From Verrucomicrobiota bacterium (GTDB lineage: Bacteria; Verrucomicrobiota; Verrucomicrobiia; Opitutales; Opitutaceae): a stretch of 64,000 nucleotides of DNA. Under the pieces are notes generated by a model, which searched no databases, was not told the DNA's origin, and worked only from the letters and a program-made list of their open reading frames with translations. The position numbers were made by a program, and so were the translations under genes. The stretch spans positions 1-64,000 of the forward strand of contig JACRKC010000073.1 of the NCBI GenBank assembly GCA_016235555.1, read 5' to 3'. Positions 4,360 through 60,734 of this stretch are shown piece by piece (position 1 is the stretch's first letter; every line of letters begins with the position of its first letter).

Positions 4360-7119
4360 CTACCTCAATACCTCAGCGAGCTTCGTGACGTCTTTGCCGC
4401 CACCCATGGCGAAGTCGGGTTTGCCACCGCCTTTGCCCCCGAGTTGCGCGCTGAGAGCCTGGACGATCTTGCCGGCTTGGTGGCCGGCCTTGATCGCCGC
4501 GGGCGAGCAGAACGCAACCACGGTCGCTTTGTCGCCGAACGAGGCGCCGAGTTGCACGACACCTTCGCCGAGCTTGGCCACGACCTGCGAGCCGAGGGCG
4601 CGCAACGCATCAGGGGCGTCGGCGGTGACGACCGCGGAGACGAACTTGAGGCCGTCGCGCACGGTCGCCTTCGACGCGAGGTCGTCGGCGAGGCCGGCGG
4701 CGGCTTTTTGCTCGAAGGCCTTGAGCTTCTTTTCGAGCTCGGCCTTGTGCGTGAGGAGCGCGTCGAGTTTCTGGGCAACATCGAGCGGGCCGGCGTTGAG
4801 CTTGGCGCCGACAGTTTTGAGCGCGGCTTCGTGATCCTCCACGAGGTCGAACGCGGGCTGGCCGGCGACCGCTTCGATGCGGCGCGTGCCCGCGGCGATG
4901 GCCATCTCGGCCACGAAACGAATGATGCCGATTTCGCCGGTGGTCGCGGTGTGCGTGCCGCCGCAGAGTTCCATCGAGTAACCGTTGAGCTTCGCGGGTT
5001 CGCCGCCGATCTGGACGACGCGCACGCGGTCGCCGTATTTGTCGCCGAAGAACTGGAGCACATCGGCGCGGCCCTTCACGTCGGCGTAGGGCACCTCGGC
5101 GTAGGCGACGGTGGCGTTGTCGAGGACCTTCTCGTTCACGAGATGTTCGATCTCGCGGAGTTGTTCGGGCTTCACCTGCTCGAAATGCAGGAAGTCGAAA
5201 CGCAGGCGCTCCTTCGTTTTCGAGGTGCCGGCCTGGCGGACATGCGTGCCGAGGACCTTGCGCAGCGCCCAGTGCACGAGGTGCGCGGCGGTGTGGTGGC
5301 GCGAGATCGCGCGGCGCGTGAGCGGCGAGACGCCGATCTGGGCGCGCTGGCCGATGAGGGAAGTTGAGGGTTGAGAGTTGAGAGTTGAGACATCCAGCGC
5401 ACAGGCGGGGGCGAGCTTGTGCAGGTGGCGGCCGGCCTTGTCCTTCACGACGTCGACGATGGCGAAGTTCTGACTGCCGATGCGCGCAGCGCCGTGATCG
5501 CCGGCCTGACCGCCCATCTCGGCGTAAAGCGGCGTCTGGTCGAAGACGAAGAACACGTCTTTGTCGGCCTTGACCACGTCGATGAGCGTGGCCTCAGCGG
5601 TGAGCTGGCCGTAGCCGATGAAGTTTGTGGGCTTCTGGTCGGTGGCTTCGCCTTCAGTGGCTGCGACGATGATTTCTTTCTTCTGGGCAGCGCGGCCGCG
5701 TTCGCGCTGCTTTTCCATCTCCGCTTCGAAGCCAGCCGTGTCGACCGTGAGCCCGCGCTCGGTCGCGAGGAGCTGCGTCATGTCGAGCGGGAAGCCGTAG
5801 GTATCGTAGAGCAGGAACGCCTGTGCTCCAGCGAGGACTTTTGTATTCGGATTTAGTTCGAGCGCGAATTGAAACTGGCTGAGGCCTTTTTCGAGCGTTC
5901 GTCCGAAGCTCTCCTCCTCACTCTTGATCACCCGCTGAACGATCGTCTGCTGCGCCTTCAGTTCGGGGAAGACGGCGCCGAGCGACTCGACGACGGGCGT
6001 GACGAGTTGTTCAAAAAAGCCGGTCTTCAGGCCGAGTTTGGTGCCGTAGAGAATCCCGCGGCGCAGGATGCGGCGGATGACGTAGTTGCGGCCTTCGTTG
6101 CCGGGGAGGATGCCGTCGGCGATCGCGCAGCTCACGCAGCGCGCGTGGTCGGCGAGCACGCGGAAGGCGACATCGATGTTCTCCTGTTCGGTCAGGCCTT
6201 CGCGTTTGGTCGGGACCGTGGCTTGGTAGGTCTTGCCGGAGAGCTCGGCGACTTTCTTGAAGAGCGGGGCGAAGACGTCGGCGGCGTAGTTTGACGGGTC
6301 CTTGGAAAAATCCTTGAAGCCACCGGTCGTGGCGTGGATGCCGGCGACGCGTTCGAAGCCCATGCCGGTGTCGACGTGCTTCGCGGCGAGCGGGGCGAAG
6401 GTGCCGTCGGCGTTGGCGTTGAACTGGATGAAAACGTGATTCCAGATTTCGATGCAACGCGGGCTGGAGGCGTTGACGAGTTTGCGGCCCTCGGCCTCGT
6501 CGTCGCTCGGCAGGAGGTTGAAGTGGATTTCCGAGCACGGGCCGCAGGGGCCGGTGTCGCCCATCATCCAGAAATTGTCCTTCTTGTTGCCGTTGACGAT
6601 GTGAACGGCGGGATCGAGGCCTTCCTGGCGAAAGATGGTGGCCCAGATGTCGTAGGCTTCTTGATCGCGTTCGGAGGGGTCGCCCTTGGCTTTGTCGGGG
6701 TTGTAGATCGTCGCGAAGAGGCGCTTCGGCGGGATGCCCCAGACCTTGGTGATGAGTTCCCAGCCCCAGGTGATCGACTCCTGCTTGAAGTAGTCGCCGA
6801 AGGACCAGTTGCCCAGCATCTCGAACATCGTGTGATGGTAGGTATCGAAGCCGACGTCTTCGAGGTCGTTGTGTTTGCCGCCGGCGCGGATGCATTTCTG
6901 GGTGTCGGCGGCGCGGGTGTCCTTGGACGGGCGGACACCGGCCCACTTGGAGACGTCGGGCGCGCGGTCGCCGAGGAAGATGGGCACGAACTGGTTCATG
7001 CCGGCGTTCGTGAAGAGGAGTCCGGGCGAGTCGGGCAGGAGCGAGGATGAGGGAACGATCGTGTGGCCCTGCTGCGCGAAGAAATCGAGGAACGACTGGC
7101 GGATGTCGGCGGAGGTCAT
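4360..7119 (-). CDS. alaS: Alanine-tRNA ligase
   Basis: Charges tRNA-Ala in the cytoplasm. The 919 residues show the full architecture: N-terminal catalytic and tRNA-binding domains (MTSADIRQSFLDFF, GLLFTNAGMNQFVPIFLG, HHTMFEMLGNWSFGDYF), the editing domain with zinc ligands HHTAAH (about 606) and CGGTH (about 720), and a C-Ala domain after a coiled coil. An upstream in-frame start at 7206 was rejected because the family begins at MTSADIR. Unusual: residues about 575-585 read STLNSQPSTS, encoded by a TCAAC-type simple repeat (5361-5391) just before the editing zinc motif, apparently a repeat insertion tolerated in frame. Confidence 0.97.
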   Translation of the reverse strand: MTSADIRQSFLDFFAQQGHTIVPSSSLLPDSPGLLFTNAGMNQFVPIFLGDRAPDVSKWAGVRPSKDTRAADTQKCIRAGGKHNDLEDVGFDTYHHTMFEMLGNWSFGDYFKQESITWGWELITKVWGIPPKRLFATIYNPDKAKGDPSERDQEAYDIWATIFRQEGLDPAVHIVNGNKKDNFWMMGDTGPCGPCSEIHFNLLPSDDEAEGRKLVNASSPRCIEIWNHVFIQFNANADGTFAPLAAKHVDTGMGFERVAGIHATTGGFKDFSKDPSNYAADVFAPLFKKVAELSGKTYQATVPTKREGLTEQENIDVAFRVLADHARCVSCAIADGILPGNEGRNYVIRRILRRGILYGTKLGLKTGFFEQLVTPVVESLGAVFPELKAQQTIVQRVIKSEEESFGRTLEKGLSQFQFALELNPNTKVLAGAQAFLLYDTYGFPLDMTQLLATERGLTVDTAGFEAEMEKQRERGRAAQKKEIIVAATEGEATDQKPTNFIGYGQLTAEATLIDVVKADKDVFFVFDQTPLYAEMGGQAGDHGAARIGSQNFAIVDVVKDKAGRHLHKLAPACALDVSTLNSQPSTSLIGQRAQIGVSPLTRRAISRHHTAAHLVHWALRKVLGTHVRQAGTSKTKERLRFDFLHFEQVKPEQLREIEHLVNEKVLDNATVAYAEVPYADVKGRADVLQFFGDKYGDRVRVVQIGGEPAKLNGYSMELCGGTHTATTGEIGIIRFVAEMAIAAGTRRIEAVAGQPAFDLVEDHEAALKTVGAKLNAGPLDVAQKLDALLTHKAELEKKLKAFEQKAAAGLADDLASKATVRDGLKFVSAVVTADAPDALRALGSQVVAKLGEGVVQLGASFGDKATVVAFCSPAAIKAGHQAGKIVQALSAQLGGKGGGKPDFAMGGGKDVTKLAEVLR
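5361..5391. repeat. TTGAG/CTCAA simple repeat inside alaS
   Basis: On the + strand the bases read AAGTTGAGGGTTGAGAG followed by two more GTTGAGA units. The same unit occurs in the metG leader at 18006-18036. Here it lies in frame in alaS and encodes STLNSQPSTS on the minus strand. Confidence 0.75.
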
Positions 7120-18005: not shown

Positions 18006-18091
18006 CAGTTGAGCGTTGAGGGTTGAGCGTTGAGGGGGCGATCCGCCAGCGGGTGGTTCGGACTCTCAACTCTTCGCTCATAACCCTCAAC
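18006..18091. repeat. TTGAG/CTCAA inverted repeats in the metG leader
   Basis: CAGTTGAGCGTTGAGGGTTG at 18006 is mirrored by CTCTCAACTC and CATAACCCTCAAC at 18063-18091, just before the metG start. The units match the simple repeat inside alaS (5361-5391). The arms could pair in the leader transcript. Confidence 0.65.
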
Positions 18092-18103: not shown

Positions 18104-19648
18104 ATGAAGTCCTTCTACATCACCACCGCCATCGACTACGTGAACGGTGCGCCGCACGTGGGCCACGCCTACGAAAAAGTGCTCACCGATGTCATCGCCC
18201 GGTTCCGGCGGCAGATGGGCGATCGGGTGCATTTCCTGACGGGAGCGGACGAACATGGGCAAAAAGTCCAGGCGAGTGCGCGCAAGCAGGGCGTCGACCC
18301 GCAGCGCTACGTCGATGAAACCAGCGCGCAGTTTCGCGCGCTCTACGACCGGCTGGGGGTCAGTTACGACGATTTTATCCGCACCACCGAGCCGCGCCAC
18401 AAGCAGGTCGTCCGCGGCATCCTGCAGCAGCTCTTCGACAAGGGCGAAATCTACCGCGCCGAATACCGCGGCTTTTACTCCACCCGCCAGGAGCAGTTTC
18501 TACAGGAGAAAGATCGCAACCCCGACGGCACGTGGCCCGAGATTTTCGGCGAGGTCACGGAGATCGTGGAGCCGAACTATTTCTTCCAACTGAAGAAATA
18601 CCAGCCGTGGCTTGTCGAGTTTCTGACCGCGAACCAGGATTTCATCTTCCCGCACTACCGGCAGAAACAGGTGCTCGAGTTCCTGAAGGAGCCGCTCAAC
18701 GACCTGTGCATCTCGCGGCCGAAGGAGCGGCTGGAGTGGGGCATCCCGCTGCCGTTCGATGAAGGTTATGTGACCTACGTGTGGTTCGACGCGCTGCTCA
18801 ACTACTACTCCGCGGTCGTGGACAAGGGCCTGTGGCCGGCGACGTGGAATCTCATCGGCAAGGACATCCTCGTGCCGCCGCACGCCGTCTACTGGCCGAT
18901 CATGCTTAAAGCGGCCGGCCTGCCGCCCCCGCAGGGCCTGCTCGTGCATGGCTGGTGGCTGCAGAGCGGCGCGAAGATGTCCAAGAGCACCGGCGGCGGC
19001 GTCAACCCGCTCGCGCTCGTCGACGAATTCGGCGTCGATGCGTTCCGCTATTTCCTCCTGCGCGAGATGAACGTGGGGCAGGACAGCGAGTTCACCCGCG
19101 AGCAGTTCCTCGTGCGCTACAACAGCGAACTGGCCAACAACCTCGGCAACCTCGTCAACCGCACGCTGAACATGACGACCCGCTACGTCGGTGGCGTCGT
19201 GCCCGCGCCCGAGGTGAGCGAGGAACTGGAGAAATCGCTGCACGCCCTGTGGGCGAAGACGCGCGACGAAGTCCTCCCGCTGTGCGAAGGCTTCCAGTTT
19301 CACACGGCGCTGGAGCGCACGATGGTGTTTCTCACCGAGACCAACGCCTACGTGGAAAAACGCGCGCCCTTCCGCCTCGCCAAATCCGCCGACGCCAGGG
19401 ATCAGGCCCTGCTGCGCACGTCGCTCGCGACGATGGCCGAGTCGCTCCGCCTCGCCGTCGCGCTCATGCAGCAGGTGACGCCGACCGCGACGGCGAAGAT
19501 CAATGCCGTGCTCGGCTACACGCCGGGGGCTCACTGGCGCGACGAACTCGACTGGGGCTCACGCCTCACCGGATCGAAGGTGGCGGCGTCGCTGGTGTTG
19601 TTTCCGCGGCCGACACCGACTGACAAGACGCCGGCGAAGCCGGCGTAA
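18104..19648 (+). CDS. metG: Methionine-tRNA ligase
   Basis: Charges tRNA-Met. The 514 residues show the class I signatures VNGAPHVGHAYEKV (HIGH-like) and KMSKSTGG (KMSKS), with DAFRYFLLRE and the anticodon-binding helical domain after it. The C-terminal tRNA-binding (OB-fold) domain of long MetRS is absent, and I see no CxxC zinc pair in the connecting region, which fits the short type. The ATG giving MKSFYITTAIDYV is chosen; the frame upstream is encoded by the TTGAG-type repeat. Confidence 0.96.
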   Translation: MKSFYITTAIDYVNGAPHVGHAYEKVLTDVIARFRRQMGDRVHFLTGADEHGQKVQASARKQGVDPQRYVDETSAQFRALYDRLGVSYDDFIRTTEPRHKQVVRGILQQLFDKGEIYRAEYRGFYSTRQEQFLQEKDRNPDGTWPEIFGEVTEIVEPNYFFQLKKYQPWLVEFLTANQDFIFPHYRQKQVLEFLKEPLNDLCISRPKERLEWGIPLPFDEGYVTYVWFDALLNYYSAVVDKGLWPATWNLIGKDILVPPHAVYWPIMLKAAGLPPPQGLLVHGWWLQSGAKMSKSTGGGVNPLALVDEFGVDAFRYFLLREMNVGQDSEFTREQFLVRYNSELANNLGNLVNRTLNMTTRYVGGVVPAPEVSEELEKSLHALWAKTRDEVLPLCEGFQFHTALERTMVFLTETNAYVEKRAPFRLAKSADARDQALLRTSLATMAESLRLAVALMQQVTPTATAKINAVLGYTPGAHWRDELDWGSRLTGSKVAASLVLFPRPTPTDKTPAKPA

Positions 19649-19666: not shown

Positions 19667-19731
19667 ATCTTTCTCTTTCGTCAGGGCTGCTGCGCAGAGA
19701 AAGATTGAAGAGAAAGACGAAAGAGAAAGAT
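19667..19731. repeat. 16-bp perfect inverted repeat before menF
   Basis: ATCTTTCTCTTTCGTC (19667-19682) and GACGAAAGAGAAAGAT (19716-19731) are exact reverse complements with a 33-base loop. The right arm ends 3 bases before the menF ATG and contains its only purine-rich ribosome-binding stretch, so pairing would hide it. Confidence 0.75.
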
Positions 19732-43855: not shown

Positions 43856-43930
43856 TGGTGGGTCGGCTGGGACTCGAACCCAGAACCAACGACTTAAAAG
43901 GACGCTGCTCTACCATTGAGCTACCGACCC
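43856..43930 (-). tRNA. tRNA-Lys (anticodon TTT)
   Basis: The minus strand folds as a cloverleaf: acceptor GGGTCGG/CCGACCC, D arm GCTC...GAGC, anticodon loop CTTTTAA with anticodon TTT, T arm CTGGG-TTCGAGT-CCCAG, and an encoded 3-prime CCA. One oddity: the anticodon stem GCGTC/GTCGT contains a T-T mismatch and a G-T pair. Confidence 0.93.
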
Positions 43931-60658: not shown

Positions 60659-60734
60659 TGGTGGGCCCACTGGGATTCGAACCCAGAACCAAAGGATTAT
60701 GAGTCCTCTGCTCTGACCGTTGAGCTATAGGCCC
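60659..60734 (-). tRNA. tRNA with CAT anticodon (Ile2 or elongator Met)
   Basis: Cloverleaf with acceptor GGGCCTA/TGGGCCC, D arm GCTC..GAGC, anticodon loop CTCATAA (anticodon CAT), T arm CTGGG-TTCGAAT-CCCAG and an encoded CCA. The anticodon stem-loop AGGACTCATAATCCT resembles lysidine-modified tRNA-Ile2, but identity cannot be fixed from sequence by eye. Confidence 0.9.

Follow-up and report, generated by a model that had tools for sequence, protein, structure and literature searches.

We report that a short repeat inside the alanine--tRNA ligase gene alaS of an Opitutaceae bacterium is one copy of a dispersed array of heptads, (GTTGAGN)x4, mostly of four units, which occupies about 50 places in this genome and is present in other genera as well. 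The repeat was detected in a stretch of 64,000 nucleotides (contig JACRKC010000073.1, positions 1 to 64,000; hereafter the window). It is a near-certain member of the dispersed heptameric tandem repeats of bacteria. In two relatives the arrays mostly follow the leading strand of replication, and at two loci the inserted DNA contains inverted copies of its immediate surroundings. Template switching during replication, at the growing leading strand, may have spread the arrays.

The heptad array in alaS

The first-pass annotation described a simple TTGAG repeat, a reading in which the unit length is wrong. The + strand of the window reads GTTGAG-G-GTTGAG-A-GTTGAG-A-GTTGAG at this place (Table 1), i.e. 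the unit is a 7-bp heptad, GTTGAGN, and Tandem Repeats Finder (TRF) gave a period of 7 with 4.1 copies at 5362-5390. Exact searches of the 64-kb window yielded six two-unit and two four-unit matches, neither of which appeared in any of 60 dinucleotide shuffles, and with up to two mismatches there were 11 heptad matches vs 3.8 expected. The pentamer TTGAGTTGAG was tried as the unit and rejected, having a single one-mismatch match vs 1.86 expected.

The placement of the repeat within the alaS reading frame, where it encodes STLNSQPSTS, was correct: the frame is intact across the array (TIGR00344 of NCBIfam, 809 bits) and the peptide spans residues 585-594 in the reading adopted here, 926 residues long. 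This loop is flanked by PF01411 and PF07973, Pfam matches to residues 12-576 and 706-756, respectively. The motif HHTAAH, which we take to be part of the editing function of AlaS, begins 20 residues past the insert, as read from the sequence.

A search of 38 genomes, counting that of the window, found AlaS in every one, and 30 loci, the window's own among them, could be compared at the loop. CTCAACT heptads, i.e. the unit in the sense of alaS, are absent from all 29 other loci; the nearest relative (G021, 81-83% identical) has a lone CTCAAC at this site and is 18 nt shorter there. This comparison supports the earlier proposal of an in-frame insertion into a tolerant loop, and no distant relative in the compared set carried the residues STLNSQPSTS without the DNA repeat. 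Two of the other loci have period-7 arrays of their own at the loop, one of the TCAGC type in G015 (lag-7 score 11) and a weaker one of the TCATT type in G024 (lag-7 score 7); in all, arrays occupy this loop in three of the 30 loci, with three different units. Such copies within proteins are most likely neutral filler.

Dispersal, period and size of the arrays

The 13-mer GTTGAGNGTTGAG has 77 exact matches in the window's own genome (G000, 8.03 Mb, a draft of 140 contigs), and copies of the heptad unit are likewise scattered over two complete genomes, with 95 matches in G004 and 240 in G003. The three-unit pattern GTTGAGNGTTGAGNGTTGAG was found in 25 of 100 genomes of the family (95 matches in G003, 41 in G004). 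Among the matches listed in named genomes, it also occurs in contigs of Bacteroidales, Planctomycetota, Fibrimonadales, Cyanobacteria, Verrucomicrobia and others, some of them perhaps by chance. A search of the genome for the unit, as the annotation had advised, thus shows that it recurs genome-wide, also as inverted pairs.

The period of seven stands out in both complete genomes. An evenly spaced sample of G003 (800 kb) contained 30 lag-7 arrays vs 0-13 at other lags between 4 and 22 (19 at the multiple 14), and 40 pieces of G004, 28 of which had been picked for arrays, contained 70 lag-7 arrays vs 0-13 at other lags (46 at lag 14). Four units is the commonest size (45/53 arrays in G004, 31/54 in G000 and 16/27 in G003) within a range of two to five, the units being counted after arrays had been extended by degenerate ones. 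In phase-variable simple sequence repeats a changing copy number switches frame or expression; for the heptad arrays the number of units ranges from two to five. The idea that the repeat expands finds no support in these sizes: no run-away expansion was seen, sister strains not being among the genomes compared. As for mobility, proposed along with it, the dispersed copies agree with the proposal, whereas no link emerged between the arrays and RVT_1 or Y1_Tnp, the two mobile-gene families considered. A universal 'GA' core of the units was also considered and rejected, being absent from 17 of 86 G004 arrays and present in 27 of 40 arrays at other lags.

Arrays of GTTGAGC or GTTGAGT type (loci L256 and L262 in G000; L213, L231, L232 and L237 in G004) lie mostly in spacers and have the GTTGAG sense, opposite to the main family. 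G003 has further heptad families (L378, L357, L362, L365), e.g. ACGGTGG, ATTTTCG and AGAGCCG. In other phyla, GTTGAG arrays reach at least a dozen units (L103, Prevotella; L151, Planctomycetaceae), vs the mostly four-unit arrays described here.

Position in genes

Genes contain 74% of the arrays of G004 and 46% of those of G000, with CTCAAC in the coding sense in 39/53 and 25/54 arrays, respectively, plus one GTTGAG-sense case in each; the open orientation was therefore adopted by 64 of 66 in-gene arrays. Among the 14 GTTGAG-type arrays listed for G003, five are in genes, all in the CTCAAC sense. The intergenic share varies by genome (13/53 in G004, 28/54 in G000 and 9/14 of the listed G003 arrays). 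GTTGAG repeats carry TGA in all frames, so that the reverse orientation would halt translation; the CTCAAC sense is stop-free in every frame. The host genes examined with Pfam or NCBIfam encode unremarkable enzymes and cellular machines: AlaRS, ProA and MetH (the last with three arrays), an asparagine synthase (AsnB), an AMP-binding ligase and a carbamoyltransferase, together with a DEAD_2-type helicase, a T2SSE ATPase and an MMPL protein. One of the eight proteins tested, encoded at L235, matched no NCBIfam family.

Strand polarity

For G004, array polarity was determined relative to parS at 2,155,199, near which the GC skew changes sign, with the terminus taken to lie opposite. The leading strand carries the GTTGAG sequence of 47 of the 54 arrays (p 2e-8). 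When the terminus is placed by the skew, at 4.60 Mb, lagging-strand genes contain 37 in-gene arrays and leading-strand genes two (both in the piece L219), and one is GTTGAG-sense; unselected coding divides 54:46 (54% lagging). In G003, where the skew is mostly 0.03-0.11, the orientation agrees with the G-rich strand in 23 of 27 arrays. A leading-strand skew like that of replication-polar chromosome motifs, of which KOPS and Chi type motifs are examples, is seen in both G004 and G003. The GC skew of the G004 pieces L211-L250 is about 0.3 per replichore and flips near parS; L219 and its arrays are locally reversed.

Empty and filled sites

Of 29 orthologues, 25 have a 24-nt linker at the site of the second MetH array, and the linkers of the other four measure 33, 42, 72 and 99 nt (the last in G073); that of G000 measures 69 nt. 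In G000 the insert consists of the array followed by GGTCGCCAGAACGA, which exactly reverse-complements TCGTTCTGGCGACC in the native DNA downstream, while the insert of G073 (99 nt) has CTCAGCT heptads and a matching inverted arm with one mismatch. The left arms of the two differ at three places, two of which are mirrored on both sides. In G040 (L394) the linker is 48 nt longer at this site and contains no heptads, perhaps because an array has decayed or been replaced. The AsnB loop measures 33-45 nt in all 19 compared orthologues and 75 nt in G004, where AATTCCGCGCGC mirrors GCGCGCGGAATT. In ProA, heptads reach a score of at least 9 in 4 of 30 orthologues, and the hairpin arm is not clearly added. 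For the carbamoyltransferase, which is matched in 12 other genomes, none of the five orthologues shown has an array. Empty sites predominate among orthologues.

Several loops have received arrays of more than one unit. The linker of the AMP-binding ligase has a lag-7 score of at least 7 in seven of 30 loci (query included) and of at least 9 in six, the units being CTCAACT, AATCCAA, CCCATCG, GCGAAGA and CAGCCTT; at other lags, one locus scores 9 at lag 12 and six do so at the multiple 14. Arrays with a score of at least 9 occupy the first MetH site in 6 and the third in 8 of 29 orthologues, again with several units; one of the third-site loci also scores 9 at a different lag.

Arrays at matching positions were also observed across genera: in a DinG-like helicase of G021, G000 and G004, in another gene of G041, G003 and G004, and in the pairs G040/G070, G027/G000 (with an inverted partner) and G095/G000, G003 having at most a decayed array at the last of these. 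Since they share a position in different genera, some arrays must be old or must have recurred there. In other homologous pairs, e.g. L056/L284, the array positions differ by coordinates. The loci in this comparison were mostly chosen for bearing arrays.

Hairpins and inverted pairs

Stems of at least 8 bp are found within 40 nt 5' of GTTGAG arrays in 9% (n=53), 17% (n=54) and 7% (n=27) of cases, random stretches for the same three sets giving 0.6%, 2.0% and 1.7%. On the 3' side no such stem was found in 134 arrays. Inverted pairs within 120 nt, sought in 2.74 Mb of family DNA, gave 14 rows, 13 of them distinct (one array stands in two rows), and all are GTTGAG-first, none CTCAAC-first. At least two CTCAAC-first pairs were spotted by eye in other phyla (L100, L142). 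A fixed palindrome as the element was rejected, as the hairpin sequences differ by site. The arrays also lack the conserved palindrome or terminal inverted repeats that mark each copy of a repetitive extragenic palindrome with its associated transposase (REP/RAYT) or of a miniature inverted-repeat transposable element (MITE): single arrays dominate.

Discussion

How could a heptad array reach so many places? In our judgement there is about an even chance that the nascent leading strand switches templates, which would let replication copy arrays into new or recurring sites. The nascent 3' end would quit its template and might fold back, copying a few bases of itself; it would then take a short stretch of heptads from another array and resume. 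The donor array, the switch and its timing are what we infer, and they would account for the polarity, for hairpins on the 5' side only, for the GTTGAG-first order of pairs and for lineage-specific units in one loop. We favour leading-strand switching because the polarity, the one-sided hairpins, the inverted local copies and the GTTGAG-first pairs all put the switching 3' end on one strand. According to the available parts of two reports on E. coli, hairpins can arise from template switching (PMC8794818), and 5-azacytidine stimulated fold-back template switching to a greater degree on the leading strand (PMC6357072). The quasipalindrome template switches described there also involve fold-back hairpins and were stronger on the leading strand in that experiment; they differ in being small templated changes, with no dispersed heptad copied (PMC6357072, PMC8794818).

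A number of observations weigh against template switching. It leaves the 7-bp unit and the four-unit size unexplained, and no insertion event was observed in progress. Seven of the 54 G004 arrays are reversed (three in the locally reversed piece L219, three of GTTGAGC and one of GTTGAGT type). The polarity, which rests on G004 and G003, G000 being a draft, could track strand composition, the skew of G004 being near 0.3 and composition and replication not being fully separable. The GGGAATC heptads of Xanthomonas have, in the available part of that study, no leading/lagging preference, in contrast to the leading-strand preference of the GTTGAG arrays (Rehm 2015, PMC4692102). Most arrays lack an adjacent hairpin; that of the DinG-like gene occurs in both of two genera and could be older than the array, and that of the AMP-binding ligase is partly there in a relative with another unit. 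At AsnB, the first bases of the right arm are in a variable stretch, and only a part of the arm is surely native. Orthologous arrays are 85-96% identical vs 56-79% for their flanks (nine pairwise comparisons), which could mean selection and not copying. Moreover, the 12 unselected G004 pieces and the 17 family AlaS loci yielded one lag-7 array each, with no lag-7 enrichment, and for this reason the arrays must be regarded as sparse. Finally, the gene calls come from a home-made two-model caller.

Local slippage, in which the native CTCAAC of alaS would have been expanded in place by a 7-nt step of the polymerase, every array being born separately, seems to us an improbable origin. The lone CTCAAC of G021 at the homologous place would suit it as a starting point, separate origins would agree with the variety of units in a single loop, and slippage has already been proposed for the abundance of heptamers, as quoted in the available part of PMC4692102. 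Independent births are difficult to reconcile with a single unit in about 50 places of G000 and with four units as the mode. The same applies to the non-heptad tail AGACGGA borne by 16 of 53 G004 arrays (background 8.5e-5 per position), although this tail is on none of the 54 arrays of G000 or the 27 of G003, and to the inserts at MetH and AsnB that hold inverted copies of adjacent DNA. The tail in G004 suggests that sequence beside the heptads came along from a donor array.

It is also doubtful that the arrays are a functional sequence maintained by selection, i.e. a binding site or RNA element, e.g. a translation element ahead of the start where Shine-Dalgarno (SD) sites are few, or a polar mark of the chromosome. 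In G000, a called start follows 14 of the 21 CTCAAC-sense spacer arrays at a distance of 5-18 nt (null mean 4.6 and at most 10 over 2000 draws), four of the 21 stand 5-18 nt past a stop, and SD-like motifs stand ahead of merely 13-17% of called genes. Heptads of the TAACTGA type are known near start codons, and a translational role was suggested for them in the available part of that paper (MacGregor 2015, PMC4679880). The higher conservation of orthologous arrays relative to their flanks and the strong hairpin in the metG leader (see below) point in the same direction. However, the proximity to start codons was not repeated in G004 (1/7 spacer arrays) or G003 (0/8), and the many arrays in coding loops (25/54 in G000, 39/53 in G004) would make no sense for a translation element. 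In addition, 75 of the 100 family genomes are without three-unit arrays, and the unit differs between genera at one loop.

It is very improbable that the arrays are non-autonomous mobile elements that rely on a reverse transcriptase or a single-strand (Y1) transposase. Dispersed copies, strand polarity and a one-sided hairpin, all seen here, are reminiscent of single-strand transposition, and 89 of 100 family genomes, G000, G003 and G004 among them, have a Y1_Tnp match, but Y1 is so nearly ubiquitous (missing in 2/25 array-bearing and 9/75 array-free genomes) that it does not discriminate as a marker of the arrays, and the hairpin sequences vary by site, which a fixed element end would not do. 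For G000 and G003, action of a reverse transcriptase (from a retron, a diversity-generating retroelement or a group II intron) was rejected, RVT_1 having no match in either at Pfam sensitivity; reverse transcriptase is found in 7/25 array-bearing vs 26/75 array-free genomes.

A further, rather unlikely possibility is an unrecognised replication-coupled process that writes about four genome-specific heptads on the nascent leading strand, overwriting earlier units at the same sites. If this were true, the protein loops and spacers of the family would record a succession of heptad 'dialects', and the constant 7-nt step would imply a dedicated or polymerase-intrinsic mechanism, so far undescribed.

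Rickettsia palindromic elements are longer palindromes inserted in frame into functional genes. The GTTGAG arrays resemble them in their in-frame insertion and differ in being direct heptads of about 28 nt, only some of which have an inverted partner. Four-unit heptamer repeats, convergent pairs and positions common to sister species are already known from the available part of the work on the GGGAATC / GGGGA(T/C)T heptamers of Xanthomonas and Nostoc (PMC4692102). Those repeats are 89-93% intergenic in Xanthomonas and 68% in Nostoc, in contrast to the in-gene shares given above for G000 and G004, though in G003 just five of the 14 listed arrays are in genes, and their units can form G-quadruplexes, whereas GGG is present here only in units with N = G. 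The TAACTGA repeats of Beggiatoaceae, Cyanobacteria and Bacteroidetes are, in the available part of PMC4679880, mostly intergenic, with copies in open reading frames mainly at protein ends; the arrays described here are in mid-enzyme loops.

In the published literature, judged in part by the titles listed, no such heptamer repeats were found for Verrucomicrobia or Opitutaceae. The letters of the repeat turned up, by title, only in plant, animal or fungal papers and the peptide STLNSQPSTS nowhere, and no heptamers were found in PMC7015867. As far as the literature searched goes, the many in-frame arrays in mid-protein loops, the leading-strand polarity, the genus-specific units at one site and the inverted local copies in inserts are new. 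Alignable coding sequence exposes heptad insertions in the form of empty and filled sites, junctions, lineage-specific units and strand polarity. The old puzzle of the heptamers becomes testable, i.e. what copies the arrays, why seven and why four. The loops of AlaRS, MetH and ProA repeatedly accept heptad DNA in frame, which makes it a plain source of new linker sequence.

Other features of the window

The recurrence of the unit as an inverted repeat in the leader of metG, which had been annotated previously, was confirmed: a four-unit array is followed there, beyond a spacer, by a degenerate inverted set (Table 1), and this layout stops 12 nt short of the ATG at 18104. Folded as RNA, the segment 18005-18102 has a predicted energy of -48.3 kcal/mol (z -5.1), corresponding to a strong hairpin that ends just 5' of the metG start; this hairpin matched no Rfam family at the gathering threshold. 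Inverted pairs in spacers, such as that of the metG leader, could form an RNA hairpin, which may affect expression.

Table 1. Heptad arrays and associated genes of the window
Feature	Position	Strand	Basis and remarks
Four-unit heptad array in alaS, (GTTGAGN)x4 = (CTCAACN)x4 in alaS sense	5363..5389	+	Sequence, TRF, shuffles
alaS (alanine--tRNA ligase)	4360..7119	-	Open through array; insert STLNSQPSTS between aminoacylation and editing-domain matches
Four-unit array in metG leader, N = C, G, C	18008..18034	+	Sequence, TRF, pattern match
Degenerate inverted heptads pairing with 18008-18034	18063..18091	-	18079-18091 matched with 2 mismatches; RNA fold
metG (methionine--tRNA ligase), 3' of inverted pair	18104..19648	+	Open reading frame, NCBIfam

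The sole Rfam matches of the window at the gathering threshold are two tRNA genes on the - strand (43859-43930 and 60662-60734). Directly 3' of metG, at 19696-19731, there is a degenerate tandem repeat of AGAGAAAGATGAA.

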